From IMG/VR virus record IMGVR_UViG_3300009506_000012, positions 18,164 through 82,163 of that record: 64,000 bases of DNA; one strand, written 5' to 3'. The notes under the pieces are model-generated. The model saw nothing but the letters and a program-made list of their open reading frames with translations, had not been told where the DNA came from and did no database searches. The translations under genes were made by a program, and so were the position numbers. Of this stretch, positions 4,547-51,925 are shown one piece after another (the stretch's first letter is position 1; each line of letters starts with the position of its first letter). This stretch comes from a virus.

Positions 4547-4851
4547 TCCAGATCCGGGATATCATTTTCGTGAATGAACATTATGACCGTACCCTGTTCA
4601 CCTATTGAAATTGCAATTGCAGGATGACAATCACAATCGTTAACAGTAGGGTGATCCAAACTGAGCATCAAACAGGAATCATCATGTGCAACATCTACAT
4701 CTGCATATCCACATACTCGATCTTTCAATACATGCTTTGCCATATCCTGTACATGAGTTTCAAGAATATAGGAACAAACACCTTCTCCGGACTTGATTCC
4801 TTTCTGGACTTCTTCATCAGTATAGATAATGACTTCTGGTTTATTTTCCAT
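4543..4851 (-). CDS. Hypothetical acidic protein
   Basis: 102 residues from the second of two adjacent ATG codons, chosen for better spacing from the AGAGGA site. Acidic, with four cysteines (two in NDCDCHP) that could bind a metal. No family recognised. It is the first gene after the noncoding stretch at 4855-5165. Confidence 0.7.
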   Translation of the reverse strand: MENKPEVIIYTDEEVQKGIKSGEGVCSYILETHVQDMAKHVLKDRVCGYADVDVAHDDSCLMLSLDHPTVNDCDCHPAIAISIGEQGTVIMFIHENDIPDLE

Positions 4852-21736: not shown

Positions 21737-22500
21737 ATGAATATCTTGAGAAGTTTCACCTGCAATATTTTCTGGAACACAAAAGAGAGAATCGCTATTG
21801 GTGGTTTTTGAGGAATCAGTTTATGCCACCTGTGTATACTACCTTGGATGAACCTGAATTCTTATTGCTGATGGAGTGGTTTCGAGAAACAGACAAGAGA
21901 GGTGTTGCCGGGGAATGTTCTGTGCCTCTCATCTCTGCTTTGCTTGGATTTATCGCCGGGTCCGGGATAGATGCAGTTGTACAGCTGGGTCATGCTTACG
22001 GATATTCCAGTCTGCTTATGGGCTGGATGCTTCGCAGAATGGGGAAAAAACATGCACTATTTTCAATCGATATCAATCCGGATGCAACTGCTTTTGCCCA
22101 ACACTATATTGACAAGGCTGACCTCAATGAAGTTGTTGCGCTCCGTGTTGGCAATAGTGCTGACCCAAAGATGGTAGATCGTGCCAGGCAGTATTTTGGA
22201 AAAGAACCACAAATGATCTTCATTGACAGCAGTCATCAATACAAACATACACTGAATGAATTACGGCTTTATTACAATGCGCTTCCCAAGAATGGGATTA
22301 TCTTTCTGCATGATATCTCTCGTTTTGCAACCAGGTTTGATAAAACAGGAAAGGGGGGAGTCATGAAGGCGGTCTGCGAGTTTGTTGAAACCAATCTTAC
22401 TGAATCCGGTCTGTTCAATCGGCATATCGAAGGTAGCGACAGGGACGCGCCTTTGATTTTGTTGGATGGGTGTGGTCTGGGAGTGATACAGAAGTTATGA
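21733..22500 (+). CDS. Class I methyltransferase, Methyltransf_24-like
   Basis: 255 residues. VVQLGHAYGYSSLLM near residues 78-92 is the SAM-binding loop, SIDINPDA gives the acidic end of strand 2, and MIFIDSSHQYKHTLNEL with IIFLHD follows the pattern of Methyltransf_24 and cephalosporin hydroxylase-type enzymes found in glycan clusters. Likely a sugar O-methyltransferase. Its TGA overlaps the ATG of the HAD/GT gene (ATGA). Confidence 0.75.
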   Translation: MNEYLEKFHLQYFLEHKRENRYWWFLRNQFMPPVYTTLDEPEFLLLMEWFRETDKRGVAGECSVPLISALLGFIAGSGIDAVVQLGHAYGYSSLLMGWMLRRMGKKHALFSIDINPDATAFAQHYIDKADLNEVVALRVGNSADPKMVDRARQYFGKEPQMIFIDSSHQYKHTLNELRLYYNALPKNGIIFLHDISRFATRFDKTGKGGVMKAVCEFVETNLTESGLFNRHIEGSDRDAPLILLDGCGLGVIQKL

Positions 22501-24650: not shown

Positions 24651-24651
24651 T

Positions 24652-24668
24652 GCTCCACATTGTGGAGC
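24652..24668. repeat. Dispersed palindrome copy 4
   Basis: GCTCCACATTGTGGAGC directly between the HAD/GT gene stop and the next start. Its right arm supplies GGAG, placed 9 bases before the ATG at 24677, so the palindrome contains the ribosome binding site. Confidence 0.85.
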
Positions 24669-24676
24669 TGATTAGC

Positions 24677-25744
24677 ATGAGCGCCTACAATCCTCCAAGA
24701 CTTGTTTCCAAAGCATACGATAGACCTGTTGACATACTGGCTACCAGGCCGCATTTTGTTGACCATATCGCTCCTGTATGGAGGCACCTAGAAAATCGAG
24801 GTGGCTTTTATGTTCCTGAAGTATTGTTAGATTATGCTAAAACCAAAGTACCTGAAGCCGTAGGGGTAAAGCCAGTTGGCAGAAGCGATAAGCTGAATAT
24901 CAGGCCTCCCGAAAAAAATGTGTACTTTACCTGCGCTTATGGGGATTTAGAGAAAGGCATGATTACTGACCTGAAACGGGTTTTTATCTTTATGGAACAC
25001 GGAGTCGGGTTAGTGTTTCCGGGAAATCCTCACTATGCCGGGAGTGTTGGCCTTCGAAGGCGTGTTCATTTCTTTCTTGCGCCAAATCAGAATATTCATG
25101 ATAAGACCTGGACCACTTTTCCAGAAGCACCGCAAGCTATTGTTGGCACCCCAAAGATGGATAATGTTCCAACAGATATGCCGATCAACCGGGATGACCC
25201 GTTGATTATTATCTCATTTCACTGGGATGGAAGGAAGGTGGCCAGGGAAGCGGCGAACGCATATCCACATTTCAGAGAGATTCTTCCGGAAATTGCAAAA
25301 CGATATCACTTGGCCGGCCATGCTCATCCACGTATCGCAAACTACTTCGAAAGAGTGTATAATGAATTAGGCATTGAGTTCATTCGTGATTTTGATGAAG
25401 TCATGCGCAGAGGGGACCTTTATCTAAATGATGCCAGTTCAACAGCATATGAATTCGGCGTCACTGGGAAACCAGTCATCTTACTTAACTCGCCCGGTTA
25501 CCGGCGTAACATAAATTTTGGAATCCGATTTTGGCAATACACAGATTGGGCTATTCAGGTTGATGAACCTGGCCAGCTCATTTCTGCTATAGAACAAACA
25601 CTACATAAACCCTCACATGAACAGAAACAGAAACAGATGGTAGCAGACCTCTACCCGTACCATGGGCAGAGTGCAAAGCGTGCTGCTGATCAAATAAACA
25701 GATTTCTGAACATGCGAGGAACCAATGCCATACAAGATACCTGA
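24677..25744 (+). CDS. GT-B / CDP-glycerol transferase-like protein
   Basis: 355 residues from the ATG at 24677, chosen because GGAG of palindrome copy 4 lies 9 bases upstream; an ATG at 24650 would put the palindrome in the coding region. The C-terminal half holds LNDASSTAYEFGVTGKPVIL, close to the SS..(Y/F)E motif of CDP-glycerol glycerophosphotransferases (TagB/TagF) and GT-B enzymes, and LAGHAHPR upstream. It likely transfers a sugar or glycerol-phosphate. It ends the modification cassette and overlaps the chaperone gene by 20 bases. Confidence 0.7.
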   Translation: MSAYNPPRLVSKAYDRPVDILATRPHFVDHIAPVWRHLENRGGFYVPEVLLDYAKTKVPEAVGVKPVGRSDKLNIRPPEKNVYFTCAYGDLEKGMITDLKRVFIFMEHGVGLVFPGNPHYAGSVGLRRRVHFFLAPNQNIHDKTWTTFPEAPQAIVGTPKMDNVPTDMPINRDDPLIIISFHWDGRKVAREAANAYPHFREILPEIAKRYHLAGHAHPRIANYFERVYNELGIEFIRDFDEVMRRGDLYLNDASSTAYEFGVTGKPVILLNSPGYRRNINFGIRFWQYTDWAIQVDEPGQLISAIEQTLHKPSHEQKQKQMVADLYPYHGQSAKRAADQINRFLNMRGTNAIQDT

Positions 25745-26510: not shown

Positions 26511-29500
26511 ATGCCCTACACGGTTCCAAATCCTACAACCGATCAATTCAGGACTTATCTTGAAAACCTTCTGAAAACATTTGATAAAACCTATCAGGTT
26601 CAATATGTGCCTCCACAGAAGGATGCCGGCAATAGCGATATTGAAGGAACGGATTTTTTCAACATCACAAAAAAATCCTCCAACAATGCTGGTGTTCTCA
26701 AGACTAACCTCAAGATAAACTTGGGACATGAGTCTCGTTTTAGAACGACCTACGGTGGACAGACTCCCCAGCAATTTGAACGTGCCCCGGAAATCCTAAC
26801 GGGTTCCGGGCAAAGTGCTTATACCGTTGGTGGCTCCTGGGCTTCAGTGGCCACGGTTGTCGATCAGCCTGGCGGGAAATCTGATATTGATATCAGGCAT
26901 GATTTGCGCTCTCCAATAGAAAGCCTGGCCACTTTGATCAGCACTGGTTTTTCAGATGTCGAAAAAGAAAACCGGTTCAATCCCGGAGCTGTTACGGGTG
27001 ATGTAACCAGCAAGATTATGAATCTGCTATCCACAGGTTCCAGTGAACACAGTGATTTTGCGGTCCCTGCCGGCGCTTTGATGACAACAACTGGAATTGA
27101 TGTAGATGCTGTTCGCAGAAAAGCCGCTCAAGCCATTCAGCTCGTAAATAGCTACGACCCTACTGGCACCGCAGAGGTAGGGCAGTTTGCACAACGAGAG
27201 GCGATAGCCAAGGCGCGTGAAAACATGATGCGTCTTAGCATTCCTGTACCTGGCCGGGGAGGAAAGCCAATTGATTCCTTTTTCAAAGAAGCTGGGTATG
27301 CTCCCGATCGCGCACAGGCTGACCGCCTTGTCGCATTATCACAGGCTTCTCGGGTTGTCCGTGATGCTCTTGGTCAGCCAACAGATACTGAAATCTATCT
27401 GCCTTCTCCGAAGATAGCCAAACACATGACTATTTTGAGTTCTGGTCGTCAACAAGCATCTTTACTTGGTGAAGATTATCAACCTATTGCGCCAAAGATG
27501 ATCACAGGACGTGTACCAACATCCGGATACAGAATGACAACCGCTGATGTTGGAGGCAGAATTCCTGAAAAGTCTCTAGTGCTTGGAACAATGTTTTCGC
27601 CTCAATATCCTATTCCGGGTGCAGGAATGTATTTTCCGGAAACTGTAGATGCCAATGTGAAATCAGGTGGCTACAAGGCTACTCAAAGTTTTGGAGTAAC
27701 TCGGAATGTCAAGGATCTTCTTACCGATAAAACCCAGCTTAATTTACAGCAACAAACCGGAAATGTAATCCCATCTTCTCTGAATTATGACGTTTTCTCA
27801 ATGCGTACTAAAGAGATGAAAAAGTCTGATCCGGATATTATGTTACAGCAACGAGCAGGCACACATTCTTTTGCCGTTGGAAATCAGCAATTGCGTATTC
27901 CCAGATATTACACGGCTGAAGGAATCGGAGCCAGCTACGATAAGCAGATGCTTCGCAAGAAACAACTTCAAGAGGTGACCCCGGCAGAGATTGAAGCACT
28001 TTCAAAACGCCTGGGCGTGAATGTTGTTCCAGACGCAACCATTGAAGAAGTCCTCTTAGAGATGGAAGGCCAAAAACTAGTTGGTGGCAAGTTTGCCATT
28101 GAGGGTGTCAAATCAGATATCACCCCTTATACCGGCACTCCAACTTTTTCAGCTGGTGGCAAGGAAAGAGCCATCAGCGCAGTAACCTGGGAATCCAAGC
28201 AAATGCTGGAAACCTTTACAGGTAGCCTTGGGGCTATTTCTCCTACAGCCCAATATGGAATCCTGAATGAATATCAAAAATCGCTTACGGCTTCAGGGGA
28301 TACGGATATGGCCGCGAACGTTCGTGCCGTCATCAAACAGCAAAAGGCATTGAGGAGAGAGGATCCTACAGCCAGGCTTGATCTTCAAGCAGCTGCAAAT
28401 CAAATAGCAGGAACTGCAACGGATGCACCTGTACATGGATTGTCCAGAGATATCTTTCAGCGTGTATTTCTGGGAGGCTCTAAGGTACAAGATTTTGCAG
28501 GTATGAATGAGGCAGACCTATCTGCGTTTGCCCAATCTGATCTGAATGTTCGCAATCTGAAAAAATTCGGTATGGGATGGGTATCTCCCGAAATGAGCAA
28601 TCCCATAACAACCATGTGGGACAGAAGCCAGGTCGAGGCTTTGTTCACTGGATACCGTCAGGGAAGTAATGTACCTGAAGCTGAATTACGTGCGCGGTTT
28701 GGGCGTCAATATGGTTTTGATTTTTCAAATGCAAAAGGTGACCAGATTGCACAGACGTTCAGGCCTAGTGGGTTTTACATGCCAGCGATTGCCGGTCCAT
28801 CTGTGGAGTTTTCCGGAGGCGGCACACTTGGTTCCGAAGAAACGCAAATCCTTTCAGCGATTGCACCAGGCTTTGCAAACCGTCTGGGCGCTAATGCAGA
28901 AGGACTGACCCGGCGTGATCCTGTGCGTTGGGCTCAACGTCAGATCGCACATATCGCCGCTACTGAAATGGATCGGGGCGAGGGTAAGTACACCAAGATT
29001 GATAATGCGCTTCAGATTGGCACAGAACAGGCGACCAAAATGTGGGCAGATCCGGAGTTTCGTGCCTTGCTTGGAGATGAGGCCGGTGATTTAGCTGGAA
29101 TGAAACGCTTTGAAGAAAAGCTGAAAAGTTTCTTTCCGGGCTCAGAGGATTTGAACCGCAGGCCTATTACCTTTGAAGCTGCCCCAGGTCGTTACCTTCC
29201 ATCAACCAGGGCAATTTCTGCTTTAGCTACTGAAAGTTCGGCAACTATGCGAGGCGGCATAAGAACAGGTGAGGATGTTACACGTTCTTGGAATATGTTC
29301 CAGAGCGCTTTTTCCCAGGCTGTCACTTCGCAGATCAACGAGGACCCGACTGGTTTGCTTGAGGGTACCCAGAATCTAACATCGCATTTTATGAGACAGT
29401 TTGGCCTCCCTGAAGGCGGCAAGCGTGATGTTATCAAGAAAATGATGGGAAGCGAAATCGGTGTTGCTTCAGGTCACTATGCTTTCTGGAATGAACTTAA

Positions 29501-32500
29501 ACAAAACGAGGTTTATGCCAGTAAAGAGAAATACATGGAAGCAATCCGTAAAGAGCTTTCAGCCCAGGGACTTGATACCCCCGAACGACCATTATCCAAT
29601 CAAGAAGTAGAACAGGTCTACAACATGATTGCAGGTCTGCCTTCAGAGGTTGGAACTGCGCCTAATGATGTGCGAACCAAAGGGTTACCCGGTGTGGTGG
29701 CTCGCTGGCCTATTGTAGCCGGTGAGGAATCCATGCTGGGAATGCGCTTTGTCACCCCGGAGCATCTACAGCGTTCGGGCCGGCAGGCACCTGTTGAGGC
29801 CGGTATGGGAAACCTTCACTGGCGAATCGGTGTTGGGCCGTCCAGTATTATGCAGGGTGACTTCGATCTTGACTACATGCTTGGTTTGATGGGGCTGACC
29901 GGAACAAGAGATGAAAGTGGCAAGCTGGATGTGAGTTTCGCAGCCTATAATAGAAACGGCAGGCTCGGAAAAGATATAAGTGCGCTTGTCAATCGAACAC
30001 AGCAAATGAGCTATGAGACTATTCAGAGGATCCTTTATCCATCTAAAAATGCTCAACAGCAATTCGACCCAATTTTCCAGGCATTCCAGGATAGAGATAA
30101 AACAGGTACGCTTGGGCCAATGCAACAAGTGGCAAGAAATCTGATTGGCGAACAGTTTGGAAAATCAGGCTGGCAGCCTTACGGCCATCTGTTAGACAGC
30201 GTGGCTACATATGGGGGAGCCAAAATGATGATGGGTACTTCTTATAACTTCACTCGTGCGCTCGAAGCAGCAGCCGGTGTAGGCGGCTGGTCAACTGAGG
30301 GAATCATGCAGGGACGTAGAGGCAGGGCACAGATCTATCAACCTCACCTTGATCTTCAGACATCCCAGGCTGCACCGATGGTTCGTATGTATCAGTCATC
30401 CTTCTTGGCCGAGGGCAAGGGTGGCAAACTGGGATTGGGCTTTGGTACCGATGTGGCTGGGTATGGATTGCAGTTCATGAAAAATGCCGGCAAGATCATG
30501 AATCTGAGCGAGGATAATACCAGTCGCATTATTACCATGCTGGCAGGTAGTGCCATTACTCCTACAACAGCCGGTGAGCTTCCATCTCCGGAAATGCTTG
30601 GGTATGCTTTCTCTCCGGAAGAAGGTAGGGTAAATACTGCTCCTGAAGATATGCAGACTTCACTGGACCTGTTCACAAAATGGAAAAATGCAGAACGCCA
30701 CCCAGAGAATGCTGCCGAATACAATAAACGCGCAGATTACGAGGAGGCTTACATGAGAACAACCGGCCTCGCTGACGTACTTCAGGCACCCTATAACATG
30801 GAGGGCACCACAGATGAAAGAGCTACTGCCATGCAACACACTCTTTCCCAGTGGATGAAATATAACTATTACGGCACGAAAGAAGGCCGTGAAACAGCCT
30901 TGCAGGGCAACTTCATTACAGCCATGTTCTCGAAGTCTTATGCAAAGAAACAGGAAAAGGAACCAGGATGGACACCTCCACTCGACTTCAGGACTTCGAA
31001 ACTCGGTTCACGGATGATGGGCAAAGCCAATATCCAGGCACCTCTTTTCAATATGATGAAAGGCGGTTTATCTTCCGGACGCACCTTGCGCCGTCTGCTG
31101 AACTCCATAGGACAGACATCCGGTCTGACAAGTTGGGCAACCGGCAATCTTCAGGCTCTTGGTTTTGGAACGGACGAGACTATCTTCCCGCAATCACAGG
31201 TATCCGCTTCGGGTAACGTGCGATCTACCGGGCCGAACGGTGAACCGATTATCGTCAGTCCAGAAATGGAACGTCTATGGGCTAAAGACTGGGCACGTAT
31301 GAAAAACAAAGGTCTCTACGAGGGCAACTTTGGTCAATACATAGAAGAACGCAAGGCAGACCTGGCTAGGCTAAACACATCTTTTGCAGGAAAGCCTGTG
31401 GATCAAGCAAGAGTAAATCCGGAAACAAAAGACATCGAAGGTGGCTTCGAGAATATTCCCATGGTGGATTTCGATGCCATCAATAATGCACAACCAGAAC
31501 CAGAACAAACGCAAACTACTACTACACAACCCGAACAAACTACTGCAAAACCACAACAAAAAACGCCAAAACCACAACAGCCCAGTAGTACCCAAAAACC
31601 GCAACCTGGTGGTACACAGCCTCCCAATAAACAACCACCCGGAGGAGGAACGTCTACTCCAGTAAGCCCCACCACCCCACCCTCTGGTACTCCCCCACCC
31701 AGAGCGCCGCAGGATGCTTCTCAGAACACCAAGTTTCCTGGTCTACCTGCCAACAGTATTCCGACTGAACAGGCACAAGAGTACATCGGCAAGTTTAGAG
31801 AGTACATGCCAAATATCACACAAGCAGCTGGCGCAATTCAGTCAGAACTTGGCGCTATTACTGGGGCAACCCCTGGACCAATGGGTGTGTACGAAGCTAT
31901 GGCGCAACTTCCTGAAGAACAGCGCATGGAAATCCTGAAAAAGTATCAGGAACCGGCGCGTCAGGCTCAGGAGCTGATGGGACTTGCGAAAAAGGTTTAT
32001 CCAAATCTTGAGAAGAACGTGATCGACCCGGCTGTACTCAGGCAGTTCGGTATGTCCGGAGCTGATCTGCGCATCATGTCTGAAGATACTCTGCTCACCA
32101 ACAATCCAGTTGGGCAGAACCTGGTTGACCTTGGTGGTCTGACGGGTGTTCCGGGGTTTGAAACCTTGAAAAAGCGTGGAGGTACCACAGCCGCATCCGG
32201 TCAGGTTAGTGCAAATATTGCTCAGATCCATTTCCAGGAATTGGGCGAAATTACAAAGAAGCTAACTGAGAATTTTGAGAACCTATCAAAAGGTCAAATC
32301 AAACATAGCGATGCCCTGAAGGAAGAAACCAAACTCCTTGAACAGCGTGAACAGGCCAGGCAAAAACAAGCGTTATCAGAGAAAGCTGCTCCACTAGTGG
32401 AGCAAGGCTTACTCGAGCCTGAAATCACGGCCACCAAACGAGGAAAACCGCAAATCTCGTACAAGCGTACTGACAAACCAATTCCTCAAGAAATGTATAA

Positions 32501-35500
32501 GGCTTCCCAGGCTTATGATGAACAGCTTCTGAAAACTGAAGGTCTTGGTGGGACAGAAGGCCAGGATAGATTGATCGGTGGTGTACGTCCGAGTTTCATG
32601 CGCCGGGTGCTGGGTGGCTTTGGACTCATGTACATGCGTTCATTAGGCAATATCATTACAGGTGGGTTAGGGTATGGCCAACAAGAGCGCACAAACATGG
32701 AGCAAGTATTCGGAGCCTCAGCTGGTGGAATGGCTGGCATTGGATATACTCCTCAGAATCAGGCGCAAGTGCTTCAGAATCGGATGGCGCTGGGTGGCCA
32801 GGCTTATAACCCTATGCTTGGATTGCAGATGGCAAGAGCGCAATCTCCACTACTTCAGGATATTTCAGCAGCTGGTGGTGCTGGACTTGGTACTTATGCC
32901 CTGTTACAACAGGCTGCTCTTTGGGGTGGTGAAGGATCCATATTCCAACAAATAGCCAATGGCGGTTTATCTGCTTTTGGTGGTCGATTGAATATCGGTG
33001 CAGGGACTGTGGTTGGCGGTGCAGTTGGCGCTTCGTTGCTGGCGCAAGGATATGCCAAGTCTCAAGATACTGAAGGCCTTGCTTACCGATGGGGTACTGG
33101 GAATGCCTTCTCAAAGATCACAGGCTTGACCGATACTCTTGGTCGAATTGGAGCTGGCCAGGCATTTACAGGTGATATCTATCAACGCGGTGCTACATAT
33201 CGAATGCTTCAGGAAAACCTGCAACGTCCTGAAGGAATGACCACTCAAGGTGTTATGGATTGGGTTACAGAGCAGGGTCTTGGTGGTCAGAAGTATGTTG
33301 ATGCCGGGACTCCGGAAGGTCAGGCATGGTATGGCCAGGCAACACAAAAACTATTGCTTGACCAAAACCCCGAATTTGCTCCTGAAACAATTGCGGCAAC
33401 TTATCAGTTCATGCAACGGAACCAGATGAACCTGAAAGACTTTGGGACAATTGCATCCCAATTTCAGACAGGGTATACAGAAGAATCTGTTTCATCGATG
33501 CTCAAGGGTTTTGGAATGAGCATGGGGCAACAACTTTCGCAAACTGAGAATTGGGCTGGCGGGAATGCGCCTACCAATTTAGGTGTTGCTTACATGCAGA
33601 CGCTTGGCATGATCAACCAAAACAACGCGCCGCAATTCCAGGCCGGTCTTGAGTATATGGGTCAGCTTGGATTTGCCCCGCAAATAATGCAACAACAGCA
33701 AGGATTGAGCAATCAAGAAATGGTCAACCAGGTCTTACAGTGGGGAGGCCAGGGAGCTATGCAGGGTGGTTTGTACGCACAACGAGCGCAGGCCTATCAG
33801 CAAGGTGCCTTTATGGGTTGGAATGTTCAGGCTCCGGAAGCACCTCCTGAAAATCTGACACCCGAGCAGTTCGGTCAGGGGATGTATGAGTCCCAGAAGC
33901 AATCCCAGAAGATGATGCAAATCGAGCAGATTGCTAACCAGTTCTCATCCAATTTCGGATGGAGTGGTGAACAGCGTCAGGGTTTCCTGGGTGACATGGA
34001 AAGTTTCTACAAGTCCGGACGCTTCAATGCTTATTATGCTGATGTTCTGGGTGGCGCTTCCCAGATGAATCCTTATGCCATGACTCAGCTGTATACCCAA
34101 CAACAGCCAGGCGGGGCACTGGCCGGTATTGGACCACAGATACAACCATGGCAGGTCACCAAAGATATTTGGGGGCCAGGTGCGGGAGAGTTGGCAGGTA
34201 AAGCCGTGAACCTGCCAGCTTTCACCGTGTCCGGAGGAACACACCCACAATTCCAGGCATTGTCTGAAATGCTTGGACCTGATTTCATGCAACAATTGCT
34301 TGGCACCGATGCCGGGAATGCCTTTGTCAATGGGTATCAGATGGAAGGCACGAACATGCCGGCTGTGGCTGGTCTTATGGGATATCAGATGCAACAAGCT
34401 GATAAACAGTGGGATTTGCGTCAAGCACAAATGGGTATTTCAGATCGAGGCAATCAGCTTCAGATGGAATATCTTCCCAAGATATGGAATATTCAAGATC
34501 AAATGCGTGACCTTGGATATCGTCATCAGATGTTCCAGTTTGGTCAGCAAGAAAAACAGATTGCCATGCAAGCCGGTCAATTCTATGAAAACATAGGCCT
34601 CAGCGAGTATCAGTCCCAGCTTCAGCGTGGATGGACCCAACAGGATTGGGCATTCAATTCCGAAACCAGAGCGATGCAACACGGATGGCGAGTAGAGGAC
34701 TTCGAGGAACAACGCCGCTTTATGACTGGTCGTCAGCGCCGGTTGGCTGAACGCCAAATGGAACGCGAGAACATCACCTATGGTCGTGAGGGTGAACAGA
34801 TCGACCGTCAGCAAGAACGGCAAAAAGAACTTTGGGCACTTGAGGATGAGCGCTTCCAGATGCAGAAGGACCATTATGAAGAACAGCGTCAGATGCAGGA
34901 AGAATCTCTCAAGGAAAACAAGAAGTATTATGAGCAGAACTTTGAACTTCAGAAAAAGCTAACTGATCTTCAGCGCGAATTGACCATGAAGCAGCTGGAA
35001 CTTCAGAAAGAATCTCTTGAACTTCAGAAACAAATTGCTGAAGAACAACACAAGATGCAACAAGTACAGCAGGCTATCCAGTTACTAATGCTTCAAAATC
35101 AGACCAAGCTAGAGGACAGCCAGCAAATCTTTGGTGGCATCAGTGAGGAGATGCGCACCCTGTTCGAGGATTGGGCTGATGTTATTGGCAACGGCGGTTC
35201 GGGCTCCGGAGGTTATACCAATTACACTGTATACGGATCCGGAGGTGCTAGCGGTACTATCAATAGTGGTGTCCGTCCGGAAGGAAGTAGCGGCGGCATG
35301 CAGATGGCCGAGGGTGGCGACTTCTGGGTGGGAGAAAACGGTCCGGAACTGCTCAGTGTTGGTATGGATGGTCCAACTACCAGGATGCGAGGACGCATTC
35401 AACCTACCAAATACGATCCTTGGGGTTCTACAGCGATAGATTCAAAACCCTCTTTCAAAGAAACCAAAGAGCAGACCATTGTTGTGCAGATTGGCAACGA

Positions 35501-35546
35501 GGAAATCAAGCGCTTTGTTGTCAGAACAGTAGAGGATGACTTGTAA
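26511..35546 (+). CDS. Tape measure protein
   Basis: 3011 residues, one of the longest expected for a siphovirus; at about 1.5 angstrom per residue the tail would be near 450 nm. The N-terminal 1650 residues are mixed and repeat-poor. A Pro/Gln/Thr-rich linker spans about 1661-1737. Hydrophobic Gly-rich stretches lie near 2030-2060 and 2115-2180, usual for the part inserted in the host membrane. A long Gln/Glu coiled coil covers about 2690-2865. The C-terminal end has GGDFWVGENGPELL, a hallmark of tape measure tails. No lysozyme or peptidase motif was recognised. Confidence 0.88.
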   Translation: MPYTVPNPTTDQFRTYLENLLKTFDKTYQVQYVPPQKDAGNSDIEGTDFFNITKKSSNNAGVLKTNLKINLGHESRFRTTYGGQTPQQFERAPEILTGSGQSAYTVGGSWASVATVVDQPGGKSDIDIRHDLRSPIESLATLISTGFSDVEKENRFNPGAVTGDVTSKIMNLLSTGSSEHSDFAVPAGALMTTTGIDVDAVRRKAAQAIQLVNSYDPTGTAEVGQFAQREAIAKARENMMRLSIPVPGRGGKPIDSFFKEAGYAPDRAQADRLVALSQASRVVRDALGQPTDTEIYLPSPKIAKHMTILSSGRQQASLLGEDYQPIAPKMITGRVPTSGYRMTTADVGGRIPEKSLVLGTMFSPQYPIPGAGMYFPETVDANVKSGGYKATQSFGVTRNVKDLLTDKTQLNLQQQTGNVIPSSLNYDVFSMRTKEMKKSDPDIMLQQRAGTHSFAVGNQQLRIPRYYTAEGIGASYDKQMLRKKQLQEVTPAEIEALSKRLGVNVVPDATIEEVLLEMEGQKLVGGKFAIEGVKSDITPYTGTPTFSAGGKERAISAVTWESKQMLETFTGSLGAISPTAQYGILNEYQKSLTASGDTDMAANVRAVIKQQKALRREDPTARLDLQAAANQIAGTATDAPVHGLSRDIFQRVFLGGSKVQDFAGMNEADLSAFAQSDLNVRNLKKFGMGWVSPEMSNPITTMWDRSQVEALFTGYRQGSNVPEAELRARFGRQYGFDFSNAKGDQIAQTFRPSGFYMPAIAGPSVEFSGGGTLGSEETQILSAIAPGFANRLGANAEGLTRRDPVRWAQRQIAHIAATEMDRGEGKYTKIDNALQIGTEQATKMWADPEFRALLGDEAGDLAGMKRFEEKLKSFFPGSEDLNRRPITFEAAPGRYLPSTRAISALATESSATMRGGIRTGEDVTRSWNMFQSAFSQAVTSQINEDPTGLLEGTQNLTSHFMRQFGLPEGGKRDVIKKMMGSEIGVASGHYAFWNELKQNEVYASKEKYMEAIRKELSAQGLDTPERPLSNQEVEQVYNMIAGLPSEVGTAPNDVRTKGLPGVVARWPIVAGEESMLGMRFVTPEHLQRSGRQAPVEAGMGNLHWRIGVGPSSIMQGDFDLDYMLGLMGLTGTRDESGKLDVSFAAYNRNGRLGKDISALVNRTQQMSYETIQRILYPSKNAQQQFDPIFQAFQDRDKTGTLGPMQQVARNLIGEQFGKSGWQPYGHLLDSVATYGGAKMMMGTSYNFTRALEAAAGVGGWSTEGIMQGRRGRAQIYQPHLDLQTSQAAPMVRMYQSSFLAEGKGGKLGLGFGTDVAGYGLQFMKNAGKIMNLSEDNTSRIITMLAGSAITPTTAGELPSPEMLGYAFSPEEGRVNTAPEDMQTSLDLFTKWKNAERHPENAAEYNKRADYEEAYMRTTGLADVLQAPYNMEGTTDERATAMQHTLSQWMKYNYYGTKEGRETALQGNFITAMFSKSYAKKQEKEPGWTPPLDFRTSKLGSRMMGKANIQAPLFNMMKGGLSSGRTLRRLLNSIGQTSGLTSWATGNLQALGFGTDETIFPQSQVSASGNVRSTGPNGEPIIVSPEMERLWAKDWARMKNKGLYEGNFGQYIEERKADLARLNTSFAGKPVDQARVNPETKDIEGGFENIPMVDFDAINNAQPEPEQTQTTTTQPEQTTAKPQQKTPKPQQPSSTQKPQPGGTQPPNKQPPGGGTSTPVSPTTPPSGTPPPRAPQDASQNTKFPGLPANSIPTEQAQEYIGKFREYMPNITQAAGAIQSELGAITGATPGPMGVYEAMAQLPEEQRMEILKKYQEPARQAQELMGLAKKVYPNLEKNVIDPAVLRQFGMSGADLRIMSEDTLLTNNPVGQNLVDLGGLTGVPGFETLKKRGGTTAASGQVSANIAQIHFQELGEITKKLTENFENLSKGQIKHSDALKEETKLLEQREQARQKQALSEKAAPLVEQGLLEPEITATKRGKPQISYKRTDKPIPQEMYKASQAYDEQLLKTEGLGGTEGQDRLIGGVRPSFMRRVLGGFGLMYMRSLGNIITGGLGYGQQERTNMEQVFGASAGGMAGIGYTPQNQAQVLQNRMALGGQAYNPMLGLQMARAQSPLLQDISAAGGAGLGTYALLQQAALWGGEGSIFQQIANGGLSAFGGRLNIGAGTVVGGAVGASLLAQGYAKSQDTEGLAYRWGTGNAFSKITGLTDTLGRIGAGQAFTGDIYQRGATYRMLQENLQRPEGMTTQGVMDWVTEQGLGGQKYVDAGTPEGQAWYGQATQKLLLDQNPEFAPETIAATYQFMQRNQMNLKDFGTIASQFQTGYTEESVSSMLKGFGMSMGQQLSQTENWAGGNAPTNLGVAYMQTLGMINQNNAPQFQAGLEYMGQLGFAPQIMQQQQGLSNQEMVNQVLQWGGQGAMQGGLYAQRAQAYQQGAFMGWNVQAPEAPPENLTPEQFGQGMYESQKQSQKMMQIEQIANQFSSNFGWSGEQRQGFLGDMESFYKSGRFNAYYADVLGGASQMNPYAMTQLYTQQQPGGALAGIGPQIQPWQVTKDIWGPGAGELAGKAVNLPAFTVSGGTHPQFQALSEMLGPDFMQQLLGTDAGNAFVNGYQMEGTNMPAVAGLMGYQMQQADKQWDLRQAQMGISDRGNQLQMEYLPKIWNIQDQMRDLGYRHQMFQFGQQEKQIAMQAGQFYENIGLSEYQSQLQRGWTQQDWAFNSETRAMQHGWRVEDFEEQRRFMTGRQRRLAERQMERENITYGREGEQIDRQQERQKELWALEDERFQMQKDHYEEQRQMQEESLKENKKYYEQNFELQKKLTDLQRELTMKQLELQKESLELQKQIAEEQHKMQQVQQAIQLLMLQNQTKLEDSQQIFGGISEEMRTLFEDWADVIGNGGSGSGGYTNYTVYGSGGASGTINSGVRPEGSSGGMQMAEGGDFWVGENGPELLSVGMDGPTTRMRGRIQPTKYDPWGSTAIDSKPSFKETKEQTIVVQIGNEEIKRFVVRTVEDDL
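32388..32403. repeat. Dispersed palindrome copy 5 (inside the tape measure)
   Basis: GCTCCACTAGTGGAGC, identical to copy 1, read as Ala-Pro-Leu-Val-Glu in the coding frame near residue 1960. Confidence 0.85.
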
Positions 35547-42391: not shown

Positions 42392-42960
42392 TGGCCGCAA
42401 TTCCGCTGAAAGGTGATCGGTCTGCTAGAGATGATGTCAACTATCCCTCTCTGCATTCCAAAGGAATAGAGGATGGAAATCAAACTATCCATCTTCCTCC
42501 TGGGACAAGTGTAGGTGACATAGCTTATTGGGATGGAACCAAATGGACAACTCAACCTCTGACAGGCAGTCAAGGAGTCGTCCCACCTATCATGACCCTT
42601 GGCACCTATGAAGGATCCATACAGGTTGCTACCTCACCACTTGGAATTTACAACCGCTATGGGGAAAGCCGTGAGATCATAGAAGTCTTTTTATCCGTGT
42701 CTGCCGCTCCGGTCGGAGCAGATATTCTTGTTGATATTCTTGTCGGAGGTGCTTCTATCTTTGGAGCAACCAAAGCCACTCTTGCAGCTGGTCAAACTAC
42801 TGGTGTGATTACATCTTTCCTGGATCCTGTTTGGTTAGCCAACAGTAAGTTGGTTTGGGACATTACTCAAGTTGGTTCAAGCACACCTGGTTCCGACCTG
42901 GTTGTTCATATTCTGCATGAGAAATATTCAGTGCCTGGCTCTGGAGGCTCGGGTTCATGA
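42388..42960 (+). CDS. Tail fibre accessory protein
   Basis: 190 residues, starts ATGATG over the previous stop. The N-terminal part includes DIAYWDGTKWTTQPLTGSQG, a short fibre-type strand motif; the rest is beta-rich and ends in GSGGSGS, like the small protein at 35546. Function: minor fibre or linker, by position. Confidence 0.55.
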   Translation: MMAAIPLKGDRSARDDVNYPSLHSKGIEDGNQTIHLPPGTSVGDIAYWDGTKWTTQPLTGSQGVVPPIMTLGTYEGSIQVATSPLGIYNRYGESREIIEVFLSVSAAPVGADILVDILVGGASIFGATKATLAAGQTTGVITSFLDPVWLANSKLVWDITQVGSSTPGSDLVVHILHEKYSVPGSGGSGS

Positions 42961-44015
42961 CTAGACTCATTACTGATGATCTTGAATCTGGTTCTGGGAC
43001 TTGGGATAGCAGTACAAGCGCATCTGTTGTTACAGCTCCCGTTGCTCACGGGACATATGCAGTTAGACTTGGATCATATGGACAGGCACGATGGCTGAGT
43101 CTTACACTCACCGAAGCCTATACCCGTTTTTATTTCATGACAGATGATCATTCTAATTTGTATATGATCACAGGAATGAAAGCCAGTGCTACTATGGTAG
43201 CGAATTTAAGACGAGATGGAAGCACCAAAAAGTTACGCTATTATTTAGCAAACACTTTGAAACAAACAGGAAGCATTGATATCGAGCCGGGTACGTGGTA
43301 CCTGATTGAAACTTATTTTCTTGAAGCCTCTAGTGGTGGACGTTATGTTGTAAAAGTGAATGGGGTAACAGATATTGATTACACCGGAGATACAAAAGGA
43401 CCTTACGGGAATTGCACCGAATTCAACGTAGGAAAATACGATGTAGGGATTATCTATCACTATTTTGATGACATCGCAGTCAATGATCCGAACGGGGGTT
43501 CAGATGATTCCTGGATAGGCAATTATCCTGGTATCAACTTACTGAAAACGTTCGAGGGTATGACCCTGGCGGGGACTGGAACGGTACCTACAAGTGCGAC
43601 ATTAGACAAAACTCTTGGCAACATGACAGTTGCAGGAACTGCCGATATTGTTGTTTCAGGCGATCTTGATAAGTCCTTTGAGAACATGACCGTTTCAGGC
43701 AGCACTGAAACCTTCATTACAGCCTCACTGTCCAAGACTTTTGAGAACATGTTCACCGCAAGCCGTTCTCTGAATTCTGCTGGAAAGCGTTCCAGTGCGT
43801 TACAGTATCTAAAACCTTATATGATTGTTGGTGTGCTTCCGGATAATTACATTTCAAGTGAAGATCGAGCCCATGTTCTCGGTTATTATTCTCTTGTAGT
43901 AGACAACTTGCAAATAAACGCATCTCTAACAATAATTTTTGATGACTTTGTATTGGACGGGCTTATCCTTGCTCGAGAGGGCCGGGTCTGGGGACCGGCG
44001 ATACAGGCAGGCTAA
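42957..44015 (+). CDS. Fibre protein: lectin-like domain plus four short repeats
   Basis: 352 residues. Residues 1-190 resemble a LamG/concanavalin-type beta sandwich (TRFYFMTDDHSNLYMITGM, EPGTWYLIETYFLE). From about 195 there are four copies of the repeat LxKTFENMTxAGTxxV (TFEGM, TLGNM, SFENM, TFENM), the same unit as in the large fibre at 48103. Probably host-surface binding. Coupled by ATGA. Confidence 0.6.
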   Translation: MTRLITDDLESGSGTWDSSTSASVVTAPVAHGTYAVRLGSYGQARWLSLTLTEAYTRFYFMTDDHSNLYMITGMKASATMVANLRRDGSTKKLRYYLANTLKQTGSIDIEPGTWYLIETYFLEASSGGRYVVKVNGVTDIDYTGDTKGPYGNCTEFNVGKYDVGIIYHYFDDIAVNDPNGGSDDSWIGNYPGINLLKTFEGMTLAGTGTVPTSATLDKTLGNMTVAGTADIVVSGDLDKSFENMTVSGSTETFITASLSKTFENMFTASRSLNSAGKRSSALQYLKPYMIVGVLPDNYISSEDRAHVLGYYSLVVDNLQINASLTIIFDDFVLDGLILAREGRVWGPAIQAG

Positions 44016-45588: not shown

Positions 45589-45999
45589 ATGACTATTCAA
45601 CTGTCTACCGCCGTTCGAAATGCAAAACTGGATGCTGTGGAATCTACTATTGGTGCTTCTGCTATCATGAAAATCTTTGATAGTGGTGGTTCTCCTCCGG
45701 CCAACTGCGCTGCCGCTGATGTTGGAACTGTACTGGCCACCATCAACCTTCCTGCTGACTGGATGGCCGCAGCTGCTTCAGGGGCAAAAGCAAAATCAGG
45801 AACATGGGAAGATACAAGTGCTGACAATGCCGGTGACGCAGATTACTTCCGTATCTATGACAATGGTGAAACAGCCTGTGGTATGCAAGGTTCTGCTGGT
45901 GACCTGGGTACCGAAGATCTTGTTTTGGATAATGCTACTATCGCTGCTGGTCAGCAAATCACGGTCACAGGATTTACCTGGACTGAAGGCAACGCATAA
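45589..45999 (+). CDS. Conserved tail-region protein
   Basis: 136 residues, preceded by GTGAGG. The pattern VRNAKLDAVESTIGASAIMKIF followed by NLPADWMAAAASGAKAKSGTW is common in phage proteins near fibre genes; function is unknown. A TATAAT box with no good -35 lies upstream near 45518. The hairpin at 46003 follows its stop. Confidence 0.65.
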   Translation: MTIQLSTAVRNAKLDAVESTIGASAIMKIFDSGGSPPANCAAADVGTVLATINLPADWMAAAASGAKAKSGTWEDTSADNAGDADYFRIYDNGETACGMQGSAGDLGTEDLVLDNATIAAGQQITVTGFTWTEGNA

Positions 46000-46031: not shown

Positions 46032-47804
46032 ATGTCTATCTCAATAACTAATCTCACAAGTGGCGATGGAGGGGCATCTCCGAATACTACTGCATCTATT
46101 TCCCCGACAAACGGGGCGGTTGTTTTTGCGTGGGTGGTTTGGGCGGTCAATACTTCGCATTCGGTCGTTTCTGATAGTGCTTCCGGTTGTGGGTTGACGT
46201 GGACGAAAGTTTCCGATTTTATTTGGGGAGTACGAAGGCGAGCATTTCTCTATGTTGGAACAGGCACGCCTTCAAGCGGTCAATTGACATTCAGCTTTGT
46301 TCCATCTGGAGGAACGGTTCAAGATTGCTTATGGATTGTGGATGAAGCAACGGGGTTAGATGCAACTACGCCGTATGGAAATGTTTATGACGCTGCGCAC
46401 GCGACCGATACTAATGTTTCCATTTCTATTGCAGAATCTCCGAATGCAGGTGATTTTGTTTGGTCGGCGATGGCTTGTGAAACGTTGAGTAGCACGATCA
46501 GCATCAACTCGGAATTAACAAATTTGACCGCAACCGTTGAAACGGGCGACAATGTAAGGAATATTGGGGCGGGATATGATTCATCTCCCGATTCAACTCC
46601 CACCCCTTCTTTCGATTACACGCCCGCAGGTTACTCGGGGATTGTTGCTTTAATTTTGAATGTCGCGTCTGCACCTGCTGTAGCTGTAGATCAGGAAGGA
46701 TTTCGGTTTCGTGATGATGATGGCTCTGAAAGCACAGCAAGTTGGAAAGCTGCTCAAGATACCGATGTTGTCATAGGCACAAATGAGCAATTCAGATTGC
46801 GTGAACTGCTCAATGCTACCGGCAATCCTGATTCTGCTCAATATCAGATTGAAGCACAACGACTGCTCAAAATCCTGGCTCATCCTGCTCAAGCTGACTG
46901 GTCACTGGAATCTACCAGCGCCATTGTGCCCGGCACGACCGGCGCATGGGATGATGCCCTGTGGATGTCTCGGCCTGGACCATTGATAAAGATCGGAAGT
47001 ACCTATTTCCTTTATTACACAGGCGCATTGTATGATGATGGGTATGGGGATGGAACATTCAGAGCTATTGGAGTATGTACTTCTACCGATGGTGTGAACT
47101 TCACCAAATACGCTGGTAATCCAATCATCACCTATACCACTACTGGATTTACAGAAATCGAAGAAGGCGCCTCAATTCCAACGATCTATATTGATCGAAC
47201 TGGAACACTCCACATGTGGTATGGAGCCTCTAAATATTATGATGTTGATCAGGTTGATGTAGATATCCGTTATCGAAAATCATTGGACGGCTATAACTGG
47301 ACTAATGACACATTAGTGCATGCTGCAACTGGAACCGAATACATTCCGACTTCACCTATGATTTGTGGCAACCAATGGAATCTATATGTCCTTGGACCAC
47401 TTACTTCAGGATATGGTGCTTTAGGTAGATTGTACGGATCATCCCCAACAGATATGCCAACTTATGAATTGATTAATGCAAGTAATTGGCGCTTCGGTGG
47501 CTCAGTAAACTTTTTGCAGGGTCGAGATTTGTATATGCTCGGGTTAACTGCATCAACTAATTTGTATAACTATCAAACTAGAACACTAGATTGTAATGAT
47601 CCATCTACAATTAGCAATCTTGTAGAGAGTGGTGGATTTGATCCTTATTACGGGCCAAATATCAACCTGGATCTTGACAATGAATTGTGGAGGATGTTTG
47701 TTCTTTCAGTAACTGGTGATGCGTATGATGGACATATACGGCAATACACCGCACCGTTTTCATGGACTGACCAAGAGGCTCTCGAGTGGCTGAAGATCCA
47801 GTAG
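46032..47804 (+). CDS. Fibre protein with Ig-like part and beta-propeller
   Basis: 590 residues. Residues 1-215 form a beta sandwich whose codons (many GCG, TCG, ACG) differ from those of neighbours, suggesting a recently acquired domain. Residues about 290-590 resemble a five-bladed propeller of GH43/GH32-type glycosidases (GPLIKIGSTYFLYYTG, CTSTDGVNFTKY). A sugar-binding or glycosidase role is possible; catalytic acids were not pinned down. Confidence 0.6.
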   Translation: MSISITNLTSGDGGASPNTTASISPTNGAVVFAWVVWAVNTSHSVVSDSASGCGLTWTKVSDFIWGVRRRAFLYVGTGTPSSGQLTFSFVPSGGTVQDCLWIVDEATGLDATTPYGNVYDAAHATDTNVSISIAESPNAGDFVWSAMACETLSSTISINSELTNLTATVETGDNVRNIGAGYDSSPDSTPTPSFDYTPAGYSGIVALILNVASAPAVAVDQEGFRFRDDDGSESTASWKAAQDTDVVIGTNEQFRLRELLNATGNPDSAQYQIEAQRLLKILAHPAQADWSLESTSAIVPGTTGAWDDALWMSRPGPLIKIGSTYFLYYTGALYDDGYGDGTFRAIGVCTSTDGVNFTKYAGNPIITYTTTGFTEIEEGASIPTIYIDRTGTLHMWYGASKYYDVDQVDVDIRYRKSLDGYNWTNDTLVHAATGTEYIPTSPMICGNQWNLYVLGPLTSGYGALGRLYGSSPTDMPTYELINASNWRFGGSVNFLQGRDLYMLGLTASTNLYNYQTRTLDCNDPSTISNLVESGGFDPYYGPNINLDLDNELWRMFVLSVTGDAYDGHIRQYTAPFSWTDQEALEWLKIQ

Positions 47805-48106
47805 TGAAATGGCGTATCTATTATGAGAATGGAACCACGTTTAGCGATTTAGATGGTGACTTCTTCGATGCACCCACTTATGGTGTGTTGGCAATAGCCT
47901 GTGATGATGGAGAATGGATAAATGGGGACATCACGGGCTTACTTCAATATCTTCAAAAACTCGGTATCGTGAAAATCGGGATCCATTCTGATAATTCAGT
48001 TTACAACCAGGTTCTTCACAAAGCCAGGCATGATAAGGACCTCAATGCAGACAGGGTAATTCTCGAGGGCGAGACTTACTACATGTTCAAAGGACCGCTT
48101 AGATGA
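47786..48106 (+). CDS. Small tail-region protein
   Basis: 106 residues, GTG start, overlapping the previous gene by 19 bases and the next by ATGA. The first 60 residues (VVKWRIYYENGTTFSDLDGD) look like a small beta domain. Function unknown; perhaps a fibre chaperone or an adaptor. Confidence 0.6.
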   Translation: MAEDPVVKWRIYYENGTTFSDLDGDFFDAPTYGVLAIACDDGEWINGDITGLLQYLQKLGIVKIGIHSDNSVYNQVLHKARHDKDLNADRVILEGETYYMFKGPLR

Positions 48107-50979
48107 CTACTTCATTTACTTCGCAGGTAGGATTCAGGATTCGCAACGGGGATTCTGTTGGCTTGAATGTGGATAGTGACTGGGCGGCTAATCAAAATAC
48201 AGGTGCCTCTATTGGGGTTGATACCACCTTCCGTGTCCGTCTTGAAGTTGAGGAACAAAACAATAAGAACGAAGTAGTAGGTGGCCAGCTTGAAGCTCGT
48301 CTAAATACAGGTTCCTGGTTCAATGTAACCACATCATCTACTGTACTCAAGGCAGTTACGTCTGGTCAGTTCACAGATGAAGATGCAACCACAAATCTTC
48401 TAACCGCTTCTGCAAAAGCCTTTGTTGCCGGTTCGGGTTCAGTTGATGGTGTTGCTACTGGTGTAGCTATTCAAAATGAGCATGTTGAATTTGAATATTC
48501 TGTTCAGATTCCAAATGCTGATGTAGTCAATGGGGACACAATTCAATTCAGAATAGCGGGAATTGATGGATGGGCTGTAACCGGCTCGATCACTGTTGTT
48601 GAAACAGTGAATACGAATGCCACCCTGAGCGAAACGCTTGACAACATGACTGCCGCAGCCACGGCTACTGTTCTGGTTGATAGCTCTCTTGCTAAGACCC
48701 TGGCAGACATGACCCTGGCGGGCACAGGAGTACAGCTCAATGAGGCTGTTCTTGCAGAGACTCTCGAGAACATGACCCTGGCAGGTACTGTATCTACCGC
48801 TACTGCTATTGAGGGAACTCTATCTAAAACCTTTGAGGACATGGCAGGATATGGACAAGTACAGACCCCGCACATTATTCTGTCAGATTCATCCTATATC
48901 ACAGCCAGCGGCGAGAACACGACCGCCCAACTTACCCCGCCAAGCGGGAAAACCACCGGTGATTTTCAAGCAGGCCGTATTCAGGATGACGAGAATCCCA
49001 CGGATGCTATTGACCTGGCCACTGATACCTACACAGAACTTGAATGGTCGCTGAAAGCACTCAACCTGAAGATCGGGGATAGCTTCAACTTCAGAGTAAC
49101 CGTCAGCGGCACTGTTCTGGACTCATATTCTGTCACTCCACTAGTGGAGATTGTCAACACAGGTCAGCTTGGTGAAACCCTGGATGGGATGACCGTTGCG
49201 GGTACTGGCACTATAGGCACAGGAGCAAACACAGCCACACTTGCAGAAACCTTTGACGATATGACAGGTGCGGGAACTGCTACCGTTTTGGTAGATGGTT
49301 CTCTGGATAAGACTCTTGAGGACATGATTGCCTCGGGTACGGGCGTGGTTGCCGTTGACAGCTCTCTCGACTCTACGCTTGAAGATATGACGAATGCAGG
49401 GACTGGAACCGTATTGGTTTTGGGTACCCTGGATGAAACTTTTGATGGGATGACCCTGGAAGGTACTGTTAGCCTGGCAACCAATGCTGATGCTGATATC
49501 ACCTTCGAGAATATGATAGGTGCCGGCGCTGGAACTGTTCAGGTGCAAGCATCACTTGATAAGACCTTTGACCCGCTGACGGTTTCCGGAATTGGTATAA
49601 CTCCGATAACATCTGATCTGGATGCTACCTTTGAGGACATGACCAATACAGGTACAGGGACTGTATTGGATGAAGGTAGTCTGAACAGCACTTTTGAGAA
49701 TATGATTGTAGCTGGGAGCGCTGGACTTGGTACCGGGGCGGTTCTCGATGCAACCTTTGAAGATATGTTGCAATCCGGGTTGGGTCAGGTAGATGCAACC
49801 GGTGCAACCGATGCAACCTTCGAGGATATGACCAGTGTGGCCACGGTTGCGGTCCTTGATACAGCTGCTCTTGATATTACCTTCAGCGATATGATTGGTG
49901 TCGGGGATGGAGATGTCCCGGTTATCGCAATCCTCAGTAAATCCTTTGAGGTGATGGATGGTTCCGGGCAAGCCACGGTTGATATTACTGCCTCACTTGA
50001 TAAGTCTTTTGAAGATCTTCAGCAATCCGCTACTGTAAACGTATTTATCACCGGGGCACTTGCTTCCACAATGGAAGATATGGCCGGCGCTGGCACCGCT
50101 ACGGCAGATGCTGGCGGGGTTTTAGATGAAACCCTTGAGGGGATGACGGCTTCAGGCACGATCGCAGTTGATGTCACGGCACAGGCTGATATTACCTTCG
50201 AGGACATGACCCAGAGCGCAACGGGTGGCGCAGGGACTATCCTCACTCTGGATATCACCTTTGAAAACATGGCCGGCGCTGGAACTGTAGAGACTCCAAT
50301 TACTGGCCAGGCAGATATCACTTTCGAGGATATGCTCAATACCGGCACCGGCATTGTGCTTATTGATGTTGACCAGGATATAGCCTTTGATGATATGGCA
50401 GCCAGTGCCCAGGCTGATGTCCTGATCGATGCCAGTCTTGACAGCACCTTCGGCGTCATGGTGGTTGCAGGTACGGCCACGGCAACACAAATAAGCTCAG
50501 GCTCTCTTGATACGCAGTTTGAGGACATGAGTATCAGTGCCGATGCTGATGCCCTCGTGTTCGCAATTGCGAACATTACATTCGACTCCATGACCGGGAC
50601 CGGTGCAGTTAATGTAGCTGTTCATGGAACACTGGCAGATCAGTTTGATGATATGCTTGCCGATGGAGATGCCAAGGCGCTTGTAACAGGAACATTGTCA
50701 CGTACTTTTGATGACATGTTCATGGTGATTGAGGGGATAATAGGGAATGCAAGTGTAGTCTTTGAGGATATGGCTGGCGCAGGCACAGCGATTGCACCTG
50801 CCAGTGCCCAGGCCGATATCAGTTTCACTGGCACATACATCAAGCATAAACTGGAACATCAATTCACAGTCACAGCATACACAACCAGTCAAATTCTATT
50901 GAAAACCGAATCCGCAGGAACTGAAACGGTTATCAACACTGAAGGAGCAGGCTCCTTAGAAATAGAGACACGTGTATGA
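48103..50979 (+). CDS. Long fibre protein made of about 30 short repeats
   Basis: 958 residues. A beta-sandwich N-terminal domain (1-165) is followed by about 30 copies of a 21-22 residue unit, consensus LDxTFEDMTxAGTGTVxVxxS. One non-repeat domain (about 250-345, LTPPSGKTTGDFQAGRIQDD) interrupts the array. Degenerate repeats like these usually form a beta solenoid or a rigid rod. It probably extends from the tail to the host surface. Repeats also occur in the 352-residue fibre at 42957. Confidence 0.75.
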   Translation: MTTSFTSQVGFRIRNGDSVGLNVDSDWAANQNTGASIGVDTTFRVRLEVEEQNNKNEVVGGQLEARLNTGSWFNVTTSSTVLKAVTSGQFTDEDATTNLLTASAKAFVAGSGSVDGVATGVAIQNEHVEFEYSVQIPNADVVNGDTIQFRIAGIDGWAVTGSITVVETVNTNATLSETLDNMTAAATATVLVDSSLAKTLADMTLAGTGVQLNEAVLAETLENMTLAGTVSTATAIEGTLSKTFEDMAGYGQVQTPHIILSDSSYITASGENTTAQLTPPSGKTTGDFQAGRIQDDENPTDAIDLATDTYTELEWSLKALNLKIGDSFNFRVTVSGTVLDSYSVTPLVEIVNTGQLGETLDGMTVAGTGTIGTGANTATLAETFDDMTGAGTATVLVDGSLDKTLEDMIASGTGVVAVDSSLDSTLEDMTNAGTGTVLVLGTLDETFDGMTLEGTVSLATNADADITFENMIGAGAGTVQVQASLDKTFDPLTVSGIGITPITSDLDATFEDMTNTGTGTVLDEGSLNSTFENMIVAGSAGLGTGAVLDATFEDMLQSGLGQVDATGATDATFEDMTSVATVAVLDTAALDITFSDMIGVGDGDVPVIAILSKSFEVMDGSGQATVDITASLDKSFEDLQQSATVNVFITGALASTMEDMAGAGTATADAGGVLDETLEGMTASGTIAVDVTAQADITFEDMTQSATGGAGTILTLDITFENMAGAGTVETPITGQADITFEDMLNTGTGIVLIDVDQDIAFDDMAASAQADVLIDASLDSTFGVMVVAGTATATQISSGSLDTQFEDMSISADADALVFAIANITFDSMTGTGAVNVAVHGTLADQFDDMLADGDAKALVTGTLSRTFDDMFMVIEGIIGNASVVFEDMAGAGTAIAPASAQADISFTGTYIKHKLEHQFTVTAYTTSQILLKTESAGTETVINTEGAGSLEIETRV
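49136..49149. repeat. Dispersed palindrome copy 6 (14 bp core)
   Basis: CTCCACTAGTGGAG inside the repeat-fibre gene, read as Pro-Leu-Val-Glu in the same frame as copy 5. It lacks the outer G/C pair. Confidence 0.75.
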
Positions 50980-51316: not shown

Positions 51317-51925
51317 ATGCCTACCCAATTTGAGATATTTGTCCAGAATGCACTTGAGATCCACGATCCATATGCACAGGGACATGGAAAAAACGTATCT
51401 CAGTTAGCCTTACTGCTTGCATTAGAGTACGAGGACGGAACTCATCAAGAAAAGATTGACTACCCCACGTTGCAGATCGCTGCAAATATCCATGATGTGG
51501 GAAAACTGTTCGTACCAGAAATATTCATAAGCAAATCAACCAGGCTGACAATTTCAGAAATGGAGACTATCAAACTGCATACTGTGTTGGGCTATAGAGC
51601 TGTACAGTCTATGAGCCTGCCCTTTATCGCGCAAGATGTTATTCTGCATCATCATGAAAACTGGGATGGCACTGGATATCCACATGGATTGCTTGAAACC
51701 AATATCAGTATCTATTGCAGAATTGTACGCATTGTAGATTCTGCTGATGTCATGTTTGGAGCTAACAGACCTTATAAGAAACGAAAATCAGTCCAGCAAA
51801 TCATTACAGAACTTGAGTTTTGTTCGGGGCGTGAATACGATCCGTATCTGACGGCCAAGTTTGTCGGCATGCTTCGCAGGAAACCCGAAATACTAGAGGA
51901 AAGATATGGATACACAGGTTCTTGA
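51317..51925 (+). CDS. HD-GYP domain phosphodiesterase
   Basis: 202 residues consisting almost entirely of one HD-GYP domain. Metal and signature residues are all present: H23, H59-D60 with K63 (IHDVGK), H88, HHH 111-113 (HHHENWDGTGYP, GYP at 120-122), D141 and RPYKKRKS at 151-158. HD-GYP enzymes hydrolyse cyclic dinucleotides such as c-di-GMP, and some cleave 3'3'-cGAMP. There is no sensor domain. It lies between fibre and lysis genes, overlaps the next gene by 20 bases, and may alter host signalling or counter a cyclic-nucleotide defence. Confidence 0.85.
   Translation: MPTQFEIFVQNALEIHDPYAQGHGKNVSQLALLLALEYEDGTHQEKIDYPTLQIAANIHDVGKLFVPEIFISKSTRLTISEMETIKLHTVLGYRAVQSMSLPFIAQDVILHHHENWDGTGYPHGLLETNISIYCRIVRIVDSADVMFGANRPYKKRKSVQQIITELEFCSGREYDPYLTAKFVGMLRRKPEILEERYGYTGS

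Follow-up and report, generated by a model that had tools for sequence, protein, structure and literature searches.

The window, by which we mean the whole 64,000-nucleotide stretch analyzed here, represents a tailed-phage genome that encodes portal, major head, and minor tail proteins, together with a 3011-aa ORF (26511–35546) presumed from its length and position to be the tape measure. Between these presumed tape-measure and tail genes and the end of the module lies an ORF of 958 aa (48103–50979, plus strand), which is laid out as an N-terminal domain, four repeats, an inserted domain, a further 26 repeats, and a tail. The beta-rich N-terminal domain (residues 1–170; 48103–48612, +) is 31% identical to the corresponding domain of a protein from another viral locus, L104. 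It is followed by repeats 1–4 (residues 174–255; 48622–48867, +), an inserted domain of ~99 residues (about 256–354; 48868–49164, +), repeats 5–30 with a period of 21 (residues 355–906; 49165–50820, +), and, from the translation, a C-terminal tail of 52 residues (907–958) that together with the stop codon occupies 50821–50979 (+). Both sets of repeats were placed by a matrix scan with manual anchors. The whole protein matched no entry in Pfam, PHROG, NCBIfam, or the PDB, and the N-terminal domain searched separately had no match in Pfam, PHROG, or the PDB.

A position-specific matrix identified 30 units in the 958-aa protein whereas copies with shuffled residues gave 0.2 on average; this bears out an earlier note on this DNA that had counted about 30 tandem copies from the sequence alone. 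That note had also given the repeat length as 21–22 residues and placed the insert at residues 250–345; the insert does exist, but its limits are corrected to those given above, and the period is 21: units within an array are spaced exactly 21 residues apart in 24 of 28 cases, the other four spacings being 23, 24, 23, and 18. Self-identity at a lag of 21 is 0.22, whereas 200 shuffles peaked at 0.12 over all lags. The units follow the consensus SLDxTFEDMTxAGTGTVxVxG, share a mean of 34% of their residues, and display alternating hydrophobic positions and a conserved Gly/Thr turn. Four further copies had been reported in a 352-aa protein (ORF 42957–44015), and these are indeed present at residues 194–281 (43536–43799, +; blastp to the 958-aa repeats, E 8e-13), the fourth unit being degenerate; when all 82,163 bases of the record were searched with the protein, the repeat was confined to these two ORFs. 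The N-terminal domain of the 352-aa protein (42957–43535, +) gave nothing significant in Pfam or the PDB and a weak match to phrog_2448 (E 5.5e-4); by resemblance only, it is possibly lectin-like.

Beyond the window, repeat arrays with up to 30 detected units were found in about 40 uncultivated phage loci and in gp039 of the cultured Caulobacter phage Seuss, and we define these here as the TL-x-x-M/A-T-x-x-G-T-G repeat family of phage proteins. The family is defined by a 17-residue core (SLxxTLxxMTLAGTGTV) at spacings of at least 21 residues, a pattern that the 958-aa protein follows with the single exception of its spacing of 18. A degenerate core pattern occurred in 65 viral stretches, whereas scanning about 257 Gb of genome sequence from bacteria and archaea gave only 25 hits; as the repeat HMM confirmed none of these 25 at E 0.01, we took them to be chance occurrences. 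A strict Met-type DNA pattern gave no matches, and one candidate, L016, was set aside as probably a chance pattern match in a short ORF with one motif. An HMM of the window repeats matched L051 (E 4.8e-70), L017 (3.9e-30), Seuss gp039 (1e-15, or 1.6e-16 with the repeat profile), and about a dozen more loci below 1e-7; matched loci include L083, L049, L092, L046, and L043. The Met-type repeats of the window and the Ala-type repeats found elsewhere are related at the profile level, with an hhalign E of 9.5e-5 against the L043 repeats versus 0.5 for a shuffled control. A census of spacings across about 40 loci gave 21 (228), 23 (114), 24 (37), 25 (10), and 22 (9) residues, with values below 21 occurring three times; this distribution would correspond to a fixed core with one insertion-tolerant loop, as expected for the rungs of a solenoid. 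LamG-type lectin domains occur in the same protein as the repeats in L006, L007, L017, L044, L078, and L097, with L092 just below the cut-off, and a CBM96 domain does so in L043. The full-length 958-aa protein has no close relatives in viral contigs or INPHARED, and the phage with the most similar terminase (L004, 70%) is represented by a 43-kb fragment that has no match to this protein. Separately, a 1337-aa phage protein in L052 (2696–6706, +) consists for the most part of at least some 40 copies of a 24-residue repeat, GSIDQSLQPVTQSATGTVxxPVYA.

The presence of one repeat in two genes of the window had been taken to suggest recombination between them. The repeat DNA of the two genes is no more similar than their protein similarity and codon use give, however, and exchange between them was rejected given that their longest exact DNA match is 14 bases. 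Tandem Repeats Finder detected no DNA-level array over either gene, only one 27-base run of a 9-mer, and the repeat in both exists at the protein level only. At four-fold degenerate sites of shared residues in the 958-aa gene the third base agrees at a frequency of 0.29–0.31 versus the 0.27–0.28 expected from base composition, and the longest DNA stretch repeated exactly has 17 bases, whereas in synonymous-codon shuffles this length averaged 16.1 and reached 23 at most. Because four-fold sites are at background and exact repeats are no longer than in shuffles, we consider the copies to be old, and recent amplification of the array was rejected on the same evidence. Synonymous sites are saturated in this phage, and thus neither recent expansion nor exchange between its two genes is supported. 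One may postulate that the array is a fast contingency locus, in which recent DNA duplication or slippage, or exchange between the two genes, tunes length within a population; copy number does vary among relatives elsewhere, and near-identical DNA units are present in the arrays of L051, L092, and Seuss gp039. The 958-aa gene, however, lacks the near-identical DNA copies of a VNTR (contingency) locus, and the background-level four-fold sites and short exact matches, both within it and between the two genes, make this explanation extremely unlikely.

Variation in length is seen in the wider family. Copy number ranges from 9 to 15 across a group with a 23-residue period, which we read as freshwater; the same gene contains nine units and no lectin in L009, L064, and L090, and one unit, a lectin-sized domain, and 9–14 units in L006, L067, L007, L091, L096, and L102 (in L006 and L007 this domain proved to be LamG). 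Downstream of the array, L007 and L009 share 99.5% identity over 3.8 kb, and the 75 bases upstream are 98.7% identical, but L009 (527–1387) is without about 1 kb of L007 (2–1786) comprising the LamG lectin and about three repeats. This loss of a lectin and repeats between near-identical phages suggests a simple route to altered adsorption. Other near-identical pairs or sets have equal repeat numbers (L047/L065, L088/L099, L050/L093, and L064/L086/L090), and we therefore conclude that length and content change, but not constantly. The length variation among strains that the earlier note had anticipated is thus evident in the wider family, but most near-identical pairs are equal, and our searches returned no relatives of the window phage that cover the 958-aa gene.

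The inserted domain, previously described as foreign, is a recurrent phage domain. Its relatives in 11 viral loci are 48–69% identical, with 22 invariant positions in an alignment of 11 rows, and by hhalign (94%, E 1.5e-7) it shares homology with the C-terminal half of the N-terminal domain within the same 958-aa protein; a foreign origin was rejected on both counts. In L110 the domain lies inside an array of the same repeat family as the 958-aa protein, and in L104, L105, L108, L109, L111, and L112 its relatives adjoin or interrupt short-repeat arrays of other sequence, with periods of about 19–23 residues. The L104 protein has the whole layout of the 958-aa protein, and hhalign detected no relation between the repeats of the two. 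The same holds for the repeats of L105, L108, L109, and L112 compared with the window repeat, with units in all five cut by hand-written patterns, so a deep relation may still exist. The large proteins in which repeats of different sequence and 20–23 residues lie around or beside the inserted domain are encoded at 4798–7740 in L105, 5437–9393 in L108, 5029–9117 in L109, 5152–7773 in L112, and 5269–7731 in L104. Within the window, a 590-aa protein (46032–47804, +) is similar over its residues 221–276 to the 958-aa protein's N-terminal domain (blastp E 0.003), which suggests that the same domains may be shuffled among neighboring genes. It is possible, if somewhat doubtful, that tailed phages have a common modular stalk slot in which repeats of 19–24 residues, unrelated in sequence but probably all solenoid-forming, are swapped between conserved end and inserted domains. 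If so, the reach of the adsorption apparatus would evolve through the swapping and resizing of interchangeable rods.

The repeats had been proposed to form a beta solenoid or rod, with structure prediction of consecutive repeats as a check. An AlphaFold model of six repeats from an alignment of 4 rows was too poor to use (pLDDT 44, pTM 0.37); with 13 gapless rows the model was all-beta and regular, with mostly two strands per repeat, and of moderate confidence (pLDDT 62, pTM 0.59). Foldseek returned no match to this model at E <1e-3. Among the matches listed were many beta-helices and other solenoids (the CAP1 CARP domain, pectate lyases, ice-binding proteins, bactofilin, and 3jx8), none of them significant, and a phage protein in BFVD aligned to the model with a TM of 0.79 and an rmsd of 2.7. 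The sister repeat of L051 matches the solved structures 3jx8 (E 3.9e-5) and 3pet (E 6.4e-5) and passes the Pfam cut-off for DUF2807 (32 versus 24.2 bits), although E-values for repetitive queries such as L051 can be inflated. DUF2807 proteins have a beta-helical fold. The window repeats themselves gave no significant match to DUF2807 (PF10988) or the PDB, and because they fail the cut-off that L051 alone passes, we liken them to this family without filing them as a member. The solenoid proposal thus gains moderate support from the L051 matches, the all-beta model, the minimum spacing of 21, and the restriction of insertions to one loop, but the fold stays predicted.

Two other arrangements of the array can be weighed against a single-chain solenoid. 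The low pLDDT of the first AlphaFold model would be compatible with a flexible, largely disordered linker, but we regard this as very unlikely given the strict minimum spacing, the alternating hydrophobic positions, the conserved Gly/Thr turn, and a model confidence that climbs with a deeper alignment. A trimeric beta-helix of intertwined chains, as in the T4 gp5 spike, would be consistent with weak matches to the gp5 C-terminal domain (E 0.04–0.7) and with the match of one A5 member to Gp5_C at 7e-7; the DUF2807 single-chain matches are stronger, however, and the gp5 repeat is 8 residues long as opposed to 21, and we consider a trimer of this kind quite unlikely.

The position of the gene bears on where the protein is located in the particle. 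A gene for a conserved virion structural protein (phrog_3758, E 6.4e-25; 45589–45999, +) lies 2.1 kb upstream of the repeat gene on the same strand. Of 16 other family loci for which 2.3 kb or more of upstream sequence was available, 12 have this order (Seuss, which was fetched through its phrog_3758 gene, and L065, a near-copy of L047, were omitted), although the 12 are not fully independent since L006 and L091 are related. The category of phrog_3758 is head and packaging, not tail, and in the Microcystis phage Mwe-JY26 its homolog follows the annotated major capsid protein at a distance of three genes, both of which would fit a scenario in which the 958-aa protein is a head fiber or decorates the capsid and its repeats still form a rod. 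Conversely, the repeat gene of the window comes long after the presumed tape-measure ORF, and that of Seuss is downstream of the annotated tail fiber J and adjoins lysis genes; a head location therefore seems unlikely, though it merits consideration. Other genes in the window are also of note. Just downstream of the repeat gene, 51317–51925 (+) encodes an HD-GYP-type phosphodiesterase-like protein (HD_5, E 5.6e-26) with the motifs HDVGK and HHENWDGTGYPHGL; among NCBIfam models it scores best against one for a c-di-GMP phosphodiesterase, below the model cut-off, and it could act on a host cyclic-dinucleotide signal. In the head–tail block, 22470–24650 and 24650–25744 (+) have weak, below-cut-off matches to glycosyltransferases or glycerophosphotransferases, and the latter gene is conserved in L004 at 50% identity.

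We infer a solenoid fold and a spacer role for the 958-aa protein and, from gene order and the lectin or CBM partner domains, a tail location and receptor contact; the explanation that we lean toward, with some reserve, is that it is a virion adsorption (tail-tip) protein in which a rod of the DUF2807 or beta-helix type, with one rung per repeat, serves as a spacer for binding domains. Each 21-residue repeat would constitute one rung of a single-chain beta-solenoid. At the rise of 0.48 nm per rung that is typical of beta-helices, the 4 and 26 rungs would form two rods of about 2 and 12.5 nm with a small beta domain between them. The rod would place binding domains, putatively sugar-binding, away from the particle, and rod length and domain content would shift over evolutionary time via the gain and loss of repeat blocks. 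If rods hold sugar-binding domains out in this manner, phages could alter their attachment reach by adding or removing blocks. Were the rod interpretation correct, many unannotated phage proteins would gain one structural explanation, as length-adjustable beta rods with exchangeable sugar-binding or Ig-like domains, and selection on the reach of adsorption proteins would become testable; the repeat profile could also enter family libraries.

The features that appear to be new are the repeat family and how widely it occurs, the domains that accompany it, and what looks like the replacement of one short repeat by another of unrelated sequence within a single slot; we found no earlier description of the family in the open literature, which is weak evidence as subscription journals were outside the coverage. 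Seuss gp039 (YP_009785549.1) resembles the window protein in its 12 units, its 21-residue period, and its order relative to phrog_3758, but consists of repeats only (268 aa) with no binding-type domain recognized, and the Seuss genome announcement, when its text was searched for "repeat", made no mention of this feature (PMC4591317). Tail-associated repeat arrays and beta-helical phage rods are already known. The BACON arrays of crAss-like phages are tail-associated tandem repeats with a proposed role in host binding, and their content likewise varies by lineage (PMC6949934), but their units are whole named carbohydrate-binding domains rather than 21-residue rungs, and Pfam BACON had no match to the window-family repeats. 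The C-terminal spike of T4 gp5 is also a repetitive beta-helical phage rod, but it is built of three intertwined chains (PMC4576200) and has weak sequence matches to our repeats. The likeness to DUF2807 (PF10988; 3jx8, 3pet) lies in rungs of ~19–21 residues, in GxGxVxV followed by a hydrophobic strand, and in the passing of the cut-off by L051; DUF2807, however, comprises bacterial lipoprotein or adhesin-type domains of fixed size, whereas the window protein carries 30 units and is encoded in a phage virion module.
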